NCBI RefSeq assembly: GCF_017161445.1
Contig: NZ_CP071060.1
Coordinates: forward strand, 1,922,001 to 1,986,000
Direction: 5' to 3'
Source of the DNA: Niveibacterium microcysteis
GTDB taxonomy: Bacteria; Pseudomonadota; Gammaproteobacteria; Burkholderiales; Rhodocyclaceae
Length of the DNA stretch: 64,000 nt
Positions 56,810 to 62,980 of this stretch are shown one piece after another; position 1 is the first letter of the stretch; each line of letters opens with the position of its first letter. The translations under genes and the position numbers were made by a program. The notes beneath the pieces were generated by a model. It did not search any database. It was not told the DNA's origin and saw only the letters and a list, made by a program, of their open reading frames with translations.

Positions 56810-59260
56810 TTGACCGAGTATCGCCCTGTCAGTGAGCCGCAGACCTGCTACCACTGCGGCCTTCCGATTGCGCCGGGGACGCAGATCTTCGTTTCCATCG
56901 ACGGTGTGCCGCGCGCCATGTGCTGCGCGGGTTGCGAAGCTGTGGCGAGCGCCATCGTTGCCGGTGGTCTGGCGGATTACTACCGCCACCGCGATGCCTT
57001 GCCGGAGGCCCGCCGCGAGGCGATGCCGGCCGAACTCAAGAACCTCGGTCTGTTTGACCATGCGGAGTTTCAGAAGGGCTTCGTGCGCGAGATTGGCGAG
57101 CATGAGCGCGAGGCGGATCTGATCCTCGAAGGCATCACCTGTGCCGCGTGTGTGTGGCTCAACGAGCAGCATCTCGCACGCCAGCCGGGGGTGACGGCAG
57201 TGCAGGTCAACTACGCCACCCGCCGCGCGCGGGTGCGCTGGGACCCGGCGCAGACCAAGTTGTCCGAGGTGCTGGCCGCGATTGCCTCGATTGGGTATCG
57301 GGCCCACCCCTACGACGCTCGCAAGAGCGAACAACTTGCGGTCAAGGAGCGGCGCACCGCGCTGTGGCGCCTGCTGGTCGCCGGCCTCGGCATGATGCAG
57401 GTGATGATGTACGCCTTTCCGGTGTACATCGCGCGCGATGGCGACATGACGCCCGACGTGCTGTTCCTGATGCGGTGGGCGAGCCTGGCGCTGACGCTGC
57501 CGGTGGTGCTGTATTCGGCGGCACCGTTCTTCCAGCACGCCTGGCGCGACATCAAGCTGCGTCGCTTGGGCATGGATGTGCCGGTGGCGCTAGGCGTCGG
57601 TGCAGCGTTTATCGCAAGTCTGTGGGCCACCTTGGTGGGCGGCGGCGAGGTGTATTTCGACTCGGTCACGATGTTCGTCTTCTTCCTCCTGTGTGGCCGC
57701 TTTCTTGAAATGGTGGCGCGCCAACGCGCAGTGCGCGGTGCCGAGGAACTTGGGCGTGTCGTGCCGACCTTCGCGGCACGCTTCACGAACTGGCCTGCGA
57801 GCCAGACTGAGGACGTTCCGGTCATCTCGCTCGCCGCTGGCGACATGTTGCGCATCAAGCCCGGCGAGGCCATTCCGGCCGACGGCACGGTGGTCGAAGG
57901 GCAGAGCGAAGCCGATGAATCCTGGCTCACCGGCGAGAGCCGTGCGGTGCCGAAGGGCGTTGGCGACCGGGTCGCCTGCGGCAGCATCAACGGCAGCGGG
58001 CCGTTGGTGCTGCGTGCCGAGCATGTCGGTGAGGAAACGCGAATCGCATCGATCCGTCGCTTGATGGAACGTGCTTCCGCGGAGCGCCCTCGTATCGTCG
58101 AACAGGCAGACGCCTTTGCTGCGCGCTTTGTTCTGGCGCTGATTGTTTTGGCCGCCGGCGCCGGGCTTTATTGGTGGATCGTCGAACCATCGCGCGCGAT
58201 CTGGATCTTCGCTTCGGTACTGGTGGTGAGTTGTCCGTGTGCGTTGTCGCTGGCCACGCCTGTCGCGCTGACGGTTGCGACCGATGCGTTGGCCCGGGTT
58301 GGCCTGCTGGTCACTCGCGGTCATGCCATCGAAACCCTGGCGCGTGCAGACCTGTTTGCATTCGACAAGACCGGCACCCTGACGCAGGGGCGTTTGACCT
58401 TGGCTGGTGTTCGTCAGGCGCCCGGCGAATTGAATGCGCTTGCCGTTGCGGCGGCGCTGGAGCAGGCGTCAGAGCATTTGATCGGCCGCGCGGTCGTCCG
58501 TGCGGCGACTGGGGCTCAGCCGGTGAACGTGGATGGTCTCCGTTCAGTGCCGGGGCGGGGCGTGGAAGGCAATCTTGCCGGCGAGCGTTTGCGGGTCGGC
58601 AATCGCGGCTTCGTCGAGGAGGTTGCAGGCAAAGCGCCGTCCTGGGTCGAACTGGACTCTGCCCTGACAACGGTCTACCTGGGTGGCGAGCGCGGCTGGC
58701 GGGCACAGTTTTCGTTCGACGACGCGTTGCGTCCGGATGCGGTGGCGCTTCTCGCGGGGCTGGCGTCCGACGGCGCGACGCTCGCGATGCTCAGCGGGGA
58801 TTCACCTGACGCGGTGCGTGGCGTCGCCCGCCAACTCAATCTTCCGGATGCTCGTGGCGGATTGCTGCCGGAGGATAAGCACGAGGCCGTCCGCAGTTGG
58901 CAGGCGGGGGGGCGGACAGTGGCGATGGTGGGTGATGGCATCAACGATGCGCCGGTCCTCGCGCAAGCCCACGTCTCGGTTGCGATTGGCAGCGGTACCG
59001 AACTGGCACGCACCCAGGCGGACTTGATCCTGCTTGGCGAGACGCTTCGTCCTCTGTTGGTCGGGCGGCACGTTGCGAAGCGCACGCTCGCCGTTATCCG
59101 GCAGAATCTGGCGTGGTCCTTCGCGTACAACGTGCTGGCAATCCCTGCGGCGATGTCGGGTTGGGTGACGCCCTGGATGGCAGGGATCGGTATGTCGGCG
59201 AGTTCGCTCTTGGTGGTGTTGAACGCGCTTCGCCTGCGACGGACCAGCCATCACCACTGA
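56810..59260 (+). CDS. ccoI: Copper-transporting P-type ATPase for cbb3 oxidase assembly
   Basis: An 816-residue P1B ATPase. The N-terminus has the CcoI-type cysteine cluster (CYHCGLPI, MCCAGCEA) and a metal-binding domain with ITCAACVWLNE. Eight membrane helices, the transport motif SCPCALSLATP, the phosphorylation site DKTGTLTQG and the hinge VGDGINDAPVL follow. It moves copper needed for the CuB centre of the cbb3 oxidase. The start is TTG, with GGAG 8 bases upstream. ccoS follows and ccoNOQP lies just downstream. Confidence 0.95.
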   Translation: MTEYRPVSEPQTCYHCGLPIAPGTQIFVSIDGVPRAMCCAGCEAVASAIVAGGLADYYRHRDALPEARREAMPAELKNLGLFDHAEFQKGFVREIGEHEREADLILEGITCAACVWLNEQHLARQPGVTAVQVNYATRRARVRWDPAQTKLSEVLAAIASIGYRAHPYDARKSEQLAVKERRTALWRLLVAGLGMMQVMMYAFPVYIARDGDMTPDVLFLMRWASLALTLPVVLYSAAPFFQHAWRDIKLRRLGMDVPVALGVGAAFIASLWATLVGGGEVYFDSVTMFVFFLLCGRFLEMVARQRAVRGAEELGRVVPTFAARFTNWPASQTEDVPVISLAAGDMLRIKPGEAIPADGTVVEGQSEADESWLTGESRAVPKGVGDRVACGSINGSGPLVLRAEHVGEETRIASIRRLMERASAERPRIVEQADAFAARFVLALIVLAAGAGLYWWIVEPSRAIWIFASVLVVSCPCALSLATPVALTVATDALARVGLLVTRGHAIETLARADLFAFDKTGTLTQGRLTLAGVRQAPGELNALAVAAALEQASEHLIGRAVVRAATGAQPVNVDGLRSVPGRGVEGNLAGERLRVGNRGFVEEVAGKAPSWVELDSALTTVYLGGERGWRAQFSFDDALRPDAVALLAGLASDGATLAMLSGDSPDAVRGVARQLNLPDARGGLLPEDKHEAVRSWQAGGRTVAMVGDGINDAPVLAQAHVSVAIGSGTELARTQADLILLGETLRPLLVGRHVAKRTLAVIRQNLAWSFAYNVLAIPAAMSGWVTPWMAGIGMSASSLLVVLNALRLRRTSHHH

Positions 59261-59285: not shown

Positions 59286-59486
59286 GTGGAAATTCTCTAT
59301 TTGCTGATTCCGTTGTCGGTCGTGCTGGTCTTCTTGATCGGCGTCGTCTTGTGGTGGTCGGTGCGTTCGGGTCAGTTCGATGACCTGGAGGGCCCCGGTT
59401 ATAGGGTGCTGATGGATGACGATTCGGCTCCGAAACCCGAAGGAACAACCCCGAAAGATGATGCGTTGCATCAAACGCAACAGTAG
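59286..59486 (+). CDS. ccoS: cbb3 oxidase maturation protein CcoS
   Basis: A 66-residue protein with one membrane helix (LLIPLSVVLVFLIGVVLWW) followed by the CcoS hallmark WSVRSGQFDDLEGPGYRVL. CcoS is needed for insertion of haem and copper into CcoN. The start is GTG with GGAGGGG upstream, 25 bases after ccoI. The tail after the core is longer and more charged than needed. Confidence 0.93.
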   Translation: MEILYLLIPLSVVLVFLIGVVLWWSVRSGQFDDLEGPGYRVLMDDDSAPKPEGTTPKDDALHQTQQ

Positions 59487-59499
59487 TCGCCGGTACCCG

Positions 59500-59513
59500 T
59501 TGACCTCTGTCAA
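59500..59513 (+). promoter_or_regulatory. FNR-type box of a predicted small RNA promoter
   Basis: TTGAC-CTCT-GTCAA is a perfect inverted repeat with the FNR core TTGA-N6-TCAA. Its centre (59506.5) is exactly 41.5 bases before A59548. A -10-like GATACT occupies 59536-59541, the expected -12 to -7 positions for that start. The arrangement is that of a class II FNR-activated promoter. Confidence 0.65.
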
Positions 59514-59547
59514 TGCAGCGAGGCAGCTCTCCGCGGATACTGTTCGC

Positions 59548-59649
59548 AACTGAGTGAGTGGGGCCGCAAAGCCCGTCGGGCTTGCTTGTCCCCGCTCGGT
59601 ACTGTCTCTCTGTTGGGGTTGGGGGTGCGCTGTTGCGCACCCTTTTTTT
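59548..59649 (+). ncRNA. Candidate FNR-controlled small RNA between ccoS and ccoN
   Basis: From the predicted start, the roughly 100-base transcript can fold into a nested 5' structure. The outer stem GAGTGGGG / CCCCGCTC (59556-59563 and 59590-59597) has one G-U pair; the inner hairpin AAGCCC-GTC-GGGCTT spans 59569-59583. An unpaired CU-rich stretch (59598-59622, containing CTGTCTCTCTGTT) follows, then a strong terminator. This is the usual plan of Hfq-type regulatory RNAs, where the unpaired CU-rich part could pair with ribosome sites. It could instead be the 3' end of the ccoIS message. Confidence 0.55.
59623..59649 (+). terminator. Strong rho-independent terminator
   Basis: GGGTGCGC-TGTT-GCGCACCC is a perfect 8-base-pair stem followed by seven T residues. 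It ends the candidate small RNA and any ccoIS read-through. Confidence 0.92.
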
Positions 59650-59702
59650 GTCGACCCTCCGCCACAGCGCTGTTAAAATTTGCAGTGCAACACTACCGCC
59701 AG

Positions 59703-59716
59703 TTGATGGTGGTCAA
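59703..59716 (+). promoter_or_regulatory. FNR-type box of the ccoNOQP promoter
   Basis: TTGAT-GGTG-GTCAA differs from the FNR/Anr consensus at one position. A -10-like TAACAT lies at 59738-59743, which puts a start near 59750 and the box near -41, the class II position. This fits induction of cbb3 oxidase when oxygen is low. Confidence 0.85.
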
Positions 59717-59820
59717 GAAACAGGCGGGAACTCCCAATAACATCGCTCGCACGATGCGCCCGTTTAGTTTCAAGGGGGGTGGTGCATCGTTCTTACATTC
59801 CGCTGCTGAGGAAATCCAAG

Positions 59821-61242
59821 ATGCAATCGCAAGCGACTTACAACTATGGAGTCGTGCGGCAGTTTGCCGTCATGACCGTGGTTTGGGGGATAGTCGGCAT
59901 GCTGGTTGGGGTCATCATTGCTGCCCAACTGGTCTGGCCGGAATTGAATTTTGCCGAGTGGTTCCATTTCGGCCGTTTGCGTCCGCTTCATACAAACGCC
60001 GTGATTTTTGCGTTTGGCGGATGCGCGCTGTTTGCGACGTCTTACTACGTTGTGCAGCGTACCTGTCACACAACCTTGTTTGCGCCCGCGCTGGCTTCCT
60101 TCACCTTCTGGGGTTGGCAGCTGGTGATCGTTCTGGCTGCGATTACGCTTCCGCTCGGCATCACCTCGGGCAAAGAGTACGCGGAGCTGGAGTGGCCGAT
60201 TGACATTCTGATCACGCTGGTCTGGGTGTCCTACGCGATCGTGTTCTTCGGCACCGTTGCCAAGCGCAAGACCTCGCATATCTACGTTGCCAACTGGTTC
60301 TACGGTGGCTTCATCCTCACAGTGGCGCTGCTGCACGTGGTGAACTCGGCTGAAATCCCGGTCACCCTGTTCAAGTCCTACTCCGCTTACGCCGGTGTGC
60401 AGGACGCGATGGTGCAGTGGTGGTATGGCCATAACGCAGTCGGCTTCTTCCTGACCGCGGGCTTTCTCGGAATGATGTACTACTTCGTTCCGAAGCAGGC
60501 CGGCCGGCCGGTGTATTCCTACCGCCTGTCGGTGGTGCACTTCTGGGCGCTGATCTTCACGTACATGTGGGCGGGTCCGCACCACCTGCACTACACGGCG
60601 TTGCCTGACTGGACCCAGTCGCTGGGTATGGCTTTCTCGCTGATCCTGCTGGCGCCGAGTTGGGGCGGCATGATCAACGGCATCATGACCCTCTCGGGCG
60701 CATGGCATAAGCTGCGCGACGATCCAATCCTGAAGTTCCTCGTCACCTCGCTGGCCTTCTACGGCATGTCGACCTTCGAAGGTCCGATGATGTCGATCAA
60801 GACCGTGAATGCGCTGTCTCACTACACCGACTGGACGATTGGCCACGTGCACTCTGGCGCACTGGGTTGGGTGGCCATGGTGTCGATCGGTTCGATCTAC
60901 TACCTGCTGCCGAAACTGTGGGGCCGCAACGAGATGTATTCGACGCCGCTGGTTACGCTGCACTTCTGGGTGTCGACGATCGGTGTCGTGCTCTACATCG
61001 CCTCGATGTGGGTGGCGGGTGTGATGCAGGGCCTGATGTGGCGCGCAACGAACTCCGATGGCACGCTCACTTATGCGTTTGTCGAAGGTGTGAAGGCGAG
61101 CTATCCCTTCTGGCAGATCCGTCTGCTCGGCGGCACGCTCTTCCTCGCAGGCATGTTCATTATGTTCTACAACATGGTGCGCACGATTGCCGGCCAGAAA
61201 GCCTACAACGCTCCGGTGATCGCACCGGCAGCCGCACACTGA
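59821..61242 (+). CDS. ccoN: cbb3-type cytochrome c oxidase subunit I
   Basis: The ATG at 59821 (GAGGA ribosome site) gives 473 residues and the usual start [15 protein letters not shown]; an open GTG 14 codons earlier is rejected. It is the catalytic subunit with twelve membrane helices. Haem and copper ligands are visible in [35 protein letters not shown] and [11 protein letters not shown]. It reduces oxygen to water with high affinity and pumps protons. Confidence 0.97.
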
Positions 61243-61259: not shown

Positions 61260-61871
61260 ATGGCAATGAATCACGAACTGGTCGAAAAGAACCTCGGCTG
61301 GCTCATCGTTCTGACCATCCTGACCGTCAGTGTTGGCGGTCTGGTCGAGATCGTTCCGCTGTTCTTCCAGAAATCAACGACCACGCCCGTCGAGGGCGTG
61401 AAGCCCTACGACCCGGTCCGTCTGGTCGGCCGTGACATCTACATCCGCGAAGGCTGCTACAACTGCCACTCGCAGATGATTCGTCCGTTCCGCGCAGAAA
61501 CCGAGCGCTATGGTCACTACTCGGTGGCAGGTGAGTTTGTGTACGACCACCCGTTCCAGTGGGGTTCCAAGCGCACCGGCCCGGATCTGGCGCGCGTGGG
61601 TGGTCGCTATTCGGATGACTGGCACAAGGTGCATCTGCGCAATCCGCGCGATGTGGTGCCGGAATCGAACATGCCTGCCTTCACCTGGCTGGATCGGCCC
61701 GTCAAGTCGGACGACATCGAGAAGAAGATGTCTGCGCTGCGTACGGTTGGCGTGCCTTACACCGATGCCGAGATCGCTGGCGCCCGCAAGCAGCTTGAGG
61801 GTGTGACCGAGCTGGATGCGCTGGTTGCGTATCTGCAAGGCATGGGCACCGCGCTGAAGAGTGTGAAGTGA
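61260..61871 (+). CDS. ccoO: cbb3-type oxidase subunit II (monohaem cytochrome c)
   Basis: A 203-residue subunit with one N-terminal membrane helix ([20 protein letters not shown]) and a single haem c site, [13 protein letters not shown]. The methionine ligand is probably in the ESNMPAF stretch. It passes electrons from CcoP to CcoN. It starts 17 bases after ccoN with AGGAG upstream and overlaps the open frame leading into ccoQ. Confidence 0.96.
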
Positions 61872-61885
61872 CGGAGGGGGCAGCC

Positions 61886-62065
61886 ATGGATGCGACGACG
61901 ATTCACTCGCTCTCTACGCTAGTCAGCTTCATCCTGTTCATCGGGATCTGCTGGTGGGCCTATAGCGGGCATTCGAAGCGCCGCTTCGATGAAGCTGCCC
62001 GGATTCCGTTCGACGACGAGGAGGGCGACGTGCATGTTGCCGCCTCGGACTCCAACAAAGGATGA
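61886..62065 (+). CDS. ccoQ: cbb3-type oxidase small subunit CcoQ
   Basis: The ATG at 61886 has GGAGGGGG upstream and gives 59 residues. One membrane helix (TLVSFILFIGICWWAY) is followed by SGHSKRRFDEAARIPFDDEE, the CcoQ hallmark. It stabilises the core complex and the link to CcoP. It lies between ccoO and ccoP in the operon. Confidence 0.92.
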   Translation: MDATTIHSLSTLVSFILFIGICWWAYSGHSKRRFDEAARIPFDDEEGDVHVAASDSNKG

Positions 62066-62071
62066 CGCATC

Positions 62072-62980
62072 ATGAGTGATTTCATTTCCCCGTTCTGGGG
62101 CTACTACGTCACGGTGCTGGTCTCGCTGAGTCTGCTGTTCTGCGCGTTTGTGCTCTCGCAGAACATGACCAAGAAGCAGGCTGGCCCCGTCGAGCTGCAC
62201 GGTCATGTGTGGGATGAGAACCTACAGGAATGGAACAACCCGCTGCCGCGGTGGTGGATGTATCTGTTCTGGATCACGATCTTCTTTGCACTCGGCTACT
62301 TCCTGCTGTTCCCGGGCTTCGGTTCGTTCGGCGGCAAGTTCGGCTGGACCGCTCATGGTCAGTACGATCTTGAGAAGGCAAAAGCTGATAAGGCGTTCGA
62401 CGACAAGTTTTCGCGTTTTGCGCAGATGGACGTGAAAGCGATTGCGGCCGATCCCGAAGCTCGCGAAATGGGTAAGCGCCTCTTCCTGACGTACTGCCAG
62501 CAGTGCCACGGTTCGGACGCAAAAGGTGCCAAGGGCTTCCCGAACCTGACTGATACCGATTGGCTCTACGGTGGCGAGCCGGACAAGATCGTCGAGACGG
62601 TAACCGGCGGGCGTCAAGCCGCCATGCCTGTCTGGGCTTCCTTGGGCGCGGACAACATCAAGGACGTCGCGAACTACGTGCGTTCGCTGTCCGGCCTGGC
62701 AAATGACTCGATCCGCGCGCAGCGTGGCAAGGACGTGTTCGCGCAGAACTGCGTGGCGTGTCACGGCGCCGACGGCAAGGGCAATCAGGCGATGGGTGCT
62801 CCGAACCTGACCGACAAGGTCTGGCTCTATGGCTCGTCGGAAGCGACGATCATCGAGACAGTCACCAAGGGTCGGAATGGTCGGATGCCGTCGTTCAACG
62901 AACTCTTGGGCGAAAAGAAGATCAAACTGCTCGCCGCTTACGTGTATGGGCTAAGCCATTCGGAGTCGGGCAAGCAGTAA
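62072..62980 (+). CDS. ccoP: cbb3-type oxidase subunit III (dihaem cytochrome c)
   Basis: A 302-residue subunit with two membrane helices near the N-terminus (the second in WWMYLFWITIFFALGYFLLF) and two haem c sites, CQQCHGS and CVACHGA. Electrons from soluble cytochrome c enter here and go on to CcoO. It begins 6 bases after ccoQ and ends before a strong terminator. Confidence 0.96.
   Translation: MSDFISPFWGYYVTVLVSLSLLFCAFVLSQNMTKKQAGPVELHGHVWDENLQEWNNPLPRWWMYLFWITIFFALGYFLLFPGFGSFGGKFGWTAHGQYDLEKAKADKAFDDKFSRFAQMDVKAIAADPEAREMGKRLFLTYCQQCHGSDAKGAKGFPNLTDTDWLYGGEPDKIVETVTGGRQAAMPVWASLGADNIKDVANYVRSLSGLANDSIRAQRGKDVFAQNCVACHGADGKGNQAMGAPNLTDKVWLYGSSEATIIETVTKGRNGRMPSFNELLGEKKIKLLAAYVYGLSHSESGKQ

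Follow-up and report, generated by a model that had tools for sequence, protein, structure and literature searches.

A predicted FNR-controlled small RNA gene between ccoS and ccoN in Niveibacterium microcysteis and its relatives

The region between ccoS and ccoN in the cbb3 oxidase locus of Niveibacterium microcysteis probably encodes a stand-alone, trans-acting base-pairing small RNA (sRNA) that is controlled by FNR and represses mRNAs at the Shine-Dalgarno sequence, with a sulfite/nitrite reductase message as its main target in the genus; we place the probability of this reading at about 0.72. By sequence and comparison, the gene consists of a class II FNR-type promoter, a variable 5′ stem-loop, a nearly invariant segment and a terminator, and it is kept behind ccoS, mostly before ccoN, across one betaproteobacterial family. 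The features of the locus are given below in the coordinates of the window, the whole 64-kb stretch of DNA that was analysed.

56810..59260, + strand: heavy-metal P-type ATPase in the ccoI position (TIGR01525 and TIGR01511 above cutoff; start codon uncertain; the name ccoI is taken from position)
59286..59486, + strand: ccoS, 5′ neighbour of the RNA gene (TIGR00847, 68.3 bits, cutoff 28.35)
59500..59513, + strand: FNR box of the sRNA promoter, TTGACCTCTGTCAA, with its centre, 59506.5, at -41.5
59536..59541, + strand: -10 element GATACT, at box centre +29.5 to +34.5, ending at -7 for a start at 59548
59548..59650, + strand: predicted small RNA, about 100 nt, its start placed from promoter geometry
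59549..59600, + strand: 5′ stem-loop arm, varying in sequence and length among species
59604..59624, + strand: conserved pairing segment GTCTCTCTGTTGGGGTTGGGG, from homologue comparison and antisense sites in mRNAs
59621..59650, + strand: intrinsic terminator, GGGUGCG stem and T7, from a terminator search and paired double-sided changes
59703..59716, + strand: second FNR box TTGATGGTGGTCAA, presumably for ccoN, an exact pattern match between the terminator and ccoN
59821..61242, + strand: ccoN, 3′ neighbour of the RNA gene (TIGR00780, 781.7 bits; ATG 59821 chosen as the start, the listed ORF beginning at GTG 59779)
61260..62980, + strand: ccoO, a 65-aa ccoQ-like ORF and ccoP (TIGR00781 and TIGR00782 above cutoff for ccoO and ccoP; the 65-aa ORF had zero profile matches and is labelled ccoQ by position only)

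A preliminary description of this locus had placed an FNR palindrome 41.5 bases before a transcription start preceded by a -10-like box, and all three positions (59500-59513, 59536-59541 and 59548) agree with our analysis; the predicted start is the A at 59548, at box centre +41.5. A second palindrome, at 59703-59716 before ccoN, went unmentioned there. Exact matches to TTGAYNNNNRTCAA occur only at these two places, 59500-59513 and 59703-59716, in the 64-kb window, and with one mismatch allowed the FNR pattern matches seven times against 3.00 expected. In an alignment of 109 listed homologous loci anchored at the FNR box, no block outside the box is more strongly conserved than that at centre +29.5 to +34.5, its best columns showing A in 66 %, T in 49 % (A in 40 %), A in 68 % and T in 69 % of the loci, accompanied by weaker base biases just 3′ of the start, at centre +43.5 to +45.5. 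This -10 peak sits at precisely the spot that a class II FNR promoter with its start at centre +41.5 requires. The peak provides a separate line of evidence that transcription driven by the box begins between it and the pairing segment. The class II arrangement, a palindrome at -41.5 with a correctly spaced -10 element, is present in the window and conserved in the 109 listed loci, and the oxygen sensor FNR seems to activate the sRNA gene.

The strand from 59548 to 59650 is predicted to fold at -50.1 kcal/mol (z -4.55), a value equalled by none of 200 shuffles, and it ends in a terminator of 10 pairs followed by a T-run. Four terminator-like sites were detected in 59300-59950 against 0.7 expected; the sRNA hairpin accounts for two of them, being counted once at each of two lengths, and the others are on the opposite strand at the end of ccoS. 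Within the CU-rich middle, the minimum free energy structure of the window RNA includes a weak 4-pair hairpin, and over 106 listed homologues the 11-nt pairing segment has a mean unpaired probability of 0.57; the earlier picture of an RNA of ~100 bases with a 5′ structure, an unpaired CU-rich middle and a terminator is therefore retained for both ends and only partly for the middle. The terminator stem was studied in alignment A1, composed of 51 diverse core sequences minus L081, with the window added. Standard pairs fill 99.0 % of its cells, double-sided changes are seen in four of eight pairs, and four out of five measures beat all 500 shuffles, whereas the number of pair types fails (156/500). 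The core is invariant in A1 by construction, because the sequences were selected on the exact 18-mer, and its conservation without such selection is gauged by a BLAST search. The homologues share the layout of base-pairing sRNAs, in which a conserved segment separates a 5′ stem from an intrinsic terminator. The 5′ arm is at its shortest a 20-nt hairpin (in the Dechloromonas/Azonexus type, whose RNA measures about 69 nt) and elsewhere forms long nested stems.

In this BLAST search, made with 59490-59660 over 61 genomes, 28 genomes were matched, comprising 28 of the 37 from the same family and none of the 24 that represent the order's other families. When genera are compared, what still matches is the segment TCTCTCTGTTGGGGTTGGGG and the terminator. 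Among the 29 places found, 28 are RNA genes with a T-run, and 26 of these have a perfect FNR box no more than 160 nt upstream; in L028 the box lies at 179 nt, and the RNA gene L010 (G033) lacks a perfect FNR box in the 300 nt upstream of it. The core, the terminator and the box before ccoN are retained in L010. The 18-base core was also searched by itself, and contigs of named genomes match it exactly in at least 119 places. The preliminary description had held that box, stems and terminator should be conserved in related genomes, and so they proved to be: among the 119 exact-core matches listed, a T-run follows the core in 113 and a perfect box lies within 160 nt upstream in 109, the terminator pairs covary, and the 5′ arms vary in sequence yet are more stable than their shuffles (mean z -2.5, 59 % below -2; n = 106 of 109 listed loci). 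The four T-run loci without a box are L131 and L151, both cut by the end of the stretch, L112, which follows an OmpW-like ORF, and the boxless L138. In L112, at about position 1249, core and terminator come right after the stop codon of the OmpW-like ORF (named by eye), with no box within 160 nt; the RNA in this genome may be derived from a 3′UTR. Six exact-core stretches without a T-run (L072, L074, L127, L161, L171 and L173) were left out of the counts, and the unrelated titles (Nocardioides, Ruegeria, a deltaproteobacterium and Nostoc) belong to four of these six listed stretches. The titles among the matches listed include Azoarcus, Aromatoleum, Thauera, Zoogloea, Dechloromonas, Azonexus, Azospira, Denitromonas, Sulfuritalea and Accumulibacter, and further Uliginosibacterium, Tepidiphilus and Hydrogenophilus, along with numerous MAGs labelled as Rhodocyclaceae or as unplaced proteobacteria.

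The surroundings of these loci bear on whether the RNA is a gene of its own. ccoS was found within 500 nt upstream in 100 of the 106 listed loci having at least 600 nt there, and ccoN within 500 nt downstream in 81 of the 96 listed loci having at least 1 kb there. Such a position, mostly directly before ccoN, would also suit a reading in which the RNA forms the beginning of the ccoN leader, with box 1 as a distal ccoNOQP promoter and the hairpin as an attenuator allowing occasional read-through. We consider this improbable, however, as ccoN usually owns a separate FNR box (in 88 of the 92 named listed loci that have ccoN at most 500 nt away, a perfect box separates ccoN from the core) and the RNA persists behind ccoS where ccoN is 0.7-2.4 kb off (5 of the 96) or not found (10 of the 96). 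In G007, too, the RNA stays behind ccoS with ccoN about 20 kb away, and a leader would need no invariant segment antisense to Shine-Dalgarno regions. Six Zoogloea-titled loci (L128, L147, L160, L162, L170 and L179) carry the RNA behind ccoS, with ccoN not found in the downstream stretch. If the RNA is instead a stand-alone sRNA, a fall in oxygen would let FNR activate it alongside, yet separately from, ccoNOQP, and it would be released as a free molecule. The segment GUCUCUCUGUUGGGGUUGGGG would then pair, presumably assisted by Hfq, with mRNAs bearing a CCCCAACCCCAACAGAGAGA-like sequence on the Shine-Dalgarno, and the pairing would block ribosome binding and thereby repress translation.

For the phylogenetic range, a covariance model, R1, comprising the segment and the terminator was run on 399 genomes of the order. 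All 13 same-family genomes listed score at least 60 bits, and none of that family is found among the no-match genomes listed. Outside the family, only G210 and G229 reach the level of at least 60 bits among the matches listed, both in a cco locus, and the next scores among these matches are 41.8, 37.0 and 34.1 bits. The genomes of these two loci, L266 (G210) and L269 (G229), are assigned to other families; transfer, misplacement or bin contamination are conceivable. Ten weaker R1 loci were examined and gave no ccoS, ccoN or ccoI match. G104, G206 and G081 (34-42 bits) were considered as carriers of distant homologues and rejected, with no ccoS, ccoN or ccoI in the locus and no perfect box within 300 nt; another weaker match, L283, has a perfect box beyond the terminator. 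In a draw of 274 genomes from the class, the window alone scored above 32.4 bits. Among the nine BLAST-negative family members, R1 recovered a single, diverged copy behind an FNR box in the cco locus of G023; together with the 28 BLAST genomes, this places the RNA in 29 of 37 family genomes. ccoN is present in 34 of these 37 (over the cutoff, or as a contig-edge fragment in G006 and G014), and the RNA accompanies it in 29 of the 34 and occurs in none of the three without ccoN (G008, G010 and G018). In G011, G012, G019, G022 and G032, ccoN is present and the RNA is undetected by BLAST or R1; before ccoN in these RNA-less genomes, one or two FNR boxes (one mismatch allowed) are seen in four and none in G032. 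Rhodocyclales-type bacteria are known for denitrification, pollutant breakdown and a part in wastewater treatment. The RNA seems to mark the window's family and to be rare outside it, and would represent an FNR-dependent sRNA family largely confined to Rhodocyclales and close kin.

In the window's genus, the main target would be the mRNA of a sulfite/nitrite reductase of the cysI/nirA type. The reductase gene of the window's genome (G000:C1:3762369-) carries PF01077 and PF03460 and has TauE/SafE and DUF934 as neighbours; the G001 reductase protein scores below every CysI or NirA equivalog cutoff, and the name rests on domains. The site CCCCAATTTCAACAGAGAGAT on the reductase Shine-Dalgarno of G000 forms 21 contiguous pairs with the RNA, four of them G-U, and ends 5 nt 5′ of the ATG, the pairing being worth -39.9 kcal/mol (z -6.65, reached by none of 200 shuffles). 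Reductase start regions were compared in 47 genomes. All seven congeners, which share ancestry, have z -2.5 or lower (mean -4.89), and the mean is -0.46 in 16 other same-family RNA-bearing genomes, the best of these being G016 (z -2.90) and G034 (z -2.53). As controls, nine family members counted as RNA-less, with G023 and its diverged RNA copy placed among them, gave a mean z of -0.91, and 15 other-family genomes -0.08. Crude ORF calls supplied 573 background start regions; the G000 value is attained by none of them, and that of the weakest congener, G002, by four.

A wobble-tolerant search of the whole G000 genome with the 19-nt antisense returned three places, namely the RNA gene, the reductase Shine-Dalgarno and, as a weak third, CTTGGCCCCGATGGAGGGG within a coding region that looks dusC-like by eye, against none for the reversed control in G000 and three in the other six congener genomes. 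The strict 19-mer search finds the reductase site in four of the seven congeners (G000, G001, G004 and G006), and in G002, G003 and G005 it is visible in the energy test only. With a 12-base antisense and one mismatch, 41 sites (seven being the RNA gene) were found in the seven congeners. The reversed control gave 31, which means that there is no enrichment of short complementarity by itself; this search pointed to the reductase and to PilT/PilU-family sites in the window's genus. Among the sites examined in that genus, the one on the reductase surpasses the rest by a wide margin, and on this comparison the reductase mRNA is the main predicted target there, through a site that is largely genus-restricted.

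If this is true, the high-affinity oxidase would have a post-transcriptional arm beside it, and an oxygen-controlled brake on sulfite/nitrite reductase is predicted. A wider interpretation, in which this sRNA, linked to cco and switched by FNR, ties sulfur metabolism and perhaps that of nitrite to the low-oxygen switch by shutting off a siroheme-type reductase in the genus, with the segment frozen family-wide and the antisense-bearing mRNAs changing by lineage, is held tentatively, at somewhat below even odds. As to why the reductase should be lowered at low oxygen, avoidance of nitrite reduction or of siroheme use during denitrification are guesses.

In other lineages, comparable sites are found on different genes. 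In G027, sodB has the antisense site CCCCCAACCCCGACAGAGAGACCTCC-ATG with a pairing z of -6.45. The mean z for sodB is -1.01 in the 28 RNA-bearing genomes, compared with -0.64 in 6 RNA-less family members and -0.29 in 18 other-family genomes (one-sided p 0.039 for RNA-bearing against other families). As a family-wide target sodB was rejected, for its pairing is extreme in G027 only, z is as low as -2.39 in one genome outside the family, and the sodB of the window's genome has z +0.16. A lowering of aerobic enzyme synthesis, mentioned for FnrS and AniS in the preliminary description, is not borne out in that form for this RNA: sodB shows a weak excess beyond G027 and none in the window's genome, and a sulfite/nitrite reductase is the best target found in the genus. 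In G015, an antisense site lies directly 5′ of a TusE/DsrC-like gene, named by eye and giving no NCBIfam or Pfam match, and among the matches listed in the 18-mer scan L072 and L171 have an exact antisense 5′ of the same gene. In G034, the 29th BLAST place (L030, G034:C8:180432-180455) is not an RNA gene and is a 24-nt near-perfect antisense of the RNA segment, situated about 36-60 nt 5′ of the ATG of an ORF that by eye resembles a flavin monooxygenase. In L335, L325 and L328 (G000, G004 and G006), CCAAACAGAGAG occurs 9 nt before the ATG of a PilT/PilU-family gene, a possible second target as judged from the site. L352 (G006:C121) has CCCCAACCCGAACAGAGAGAGA shortly 5′ of an ATG, and the ORF, of which 62 aa are visible, is PAS-like by eye, with no NCBIfam match.

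A search with a gapped 10-mer followed by ATG was set aside as evidence of targets: it gave 18 matches (two being the RNA gene) against 5 for the reversed control in the 37 same-family genomes, and 8 against 4 in the 24 other genomes, with no gene common to several genomes and one gene found twice within G030. No single target is conserved across the family in the sodB, reductase and pattern searches, though the pairing segment is. The constancy of the segment, combined with best sites that differ between lineages (sodB in G027, the TusE/DsrC-like gene in G015, L072 and L171, and further the flavin-monooxygenase-like ORF and the PilT/PilU-family gene) and with the slightly better sodB pairing in RNA-bearing genomes, is what an FNR-activated sRNA with a main role other than the reductase would be expected to show, whether it acts in an FnrS-like manner on many messages with AGAGAGA-like Shine-Dalgarno sequences or titrates a protein. 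This alternative is a real one, if doubtful, as the reductase site lies so far above the other examined sites in the window's genus. Whichever messages are bound, a frozen segment with changing partners is suited to the study of sRNA regulon evolution.

The preliminary description had likened the RNA to FnrS and AniS, a comparison that is useful as an analogy of logic and does not extend to homology, since an Rfam scan of the RNA at 59548-59650 returned no family at threshold. Membership of a known Rfam family (AniS, SorY, FnrS or bdhR1/S17) is accordingly very unlikely; it could appeal to sub-threshold scores for SorY (RF02651, 34.6 bits, E 2.3e-5) and AniS (RF02274, 22.9 bits), but the respective cut-offs are 111 and 50 bits, and neither FnrS nor RF02278 appears among matches at E<=10. 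FnrS is an FNR-controlled base-pairing RNA of anaerobic growth in enterobacteria. It was absent at the gathering threshold as well, and the window RNA may be called FnrS-like in logic, not in sequence. Among the FnrS targets listed in PMC8595263 is sodB, likewise a strong predicted partner of the window-type RNA in G027; the window RNA differs in residing in a cco locus and in having a sulfite/nitrite reductase as the best target in its genus. AniS of Neisseria, according to PMC4423775, is made under oxygen limitation and reported to be FNR-controlled; it is similarly betaproteobacterial, and its Rfam model runs from a 5′ stem through an unpaired middle to a terminator.

SorY of the alphaproteobacterial Rhodobacter has the same layout, and its consensus CUCCCUGUUGG resembles CUCUCUGUUGG of the window RNA, with sub-threshold matches of 28.4-38.6 bits in 7 of 20 relatives scanned; it is, however, a stress RNA dependent on RpoHI/RpoHII (PMC5036791), not under FNR control. 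The same paper reports that overexpression of Pos19, also from Rhodobacter, lowers cysI and cysH mRNA, but Pos19 is 219 nt long, RpoE-dependent, ORF-carrying and known there from R. sphaeroides strains only. SicX of Pseudomonas aeruginosa, a low-oxygen sRNA behind an Anr (FNR-type) box (PMC10247376), is likened here by description and not by sequence, and differs in activating translation of ubiUVT. S17/bdhR1 (RF02278), described in PMC11722255 as a betaproteobacterial sRNA with a fully conserved pairing region, was considered because it is reported there also from Aromatoleum and Ca. Desulfobacillus; homology was rejected because RF02278 is unmatched in the E<=10 list, the two RNAs being set apart by this Rfam model and not by direct alignment. 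In Bordetella, S17 sits between a glycosyltransferase gene and coq7 according to the same paper. Among the papers listed by searches of an open-access library, which leaves most subscription journals outside, none concerned an sRNA at this locus. The window also contains a C4 antisense RNA at 2491-2578 on the - strand (RF01695, 70.8 bits), far from the sRNA locus.
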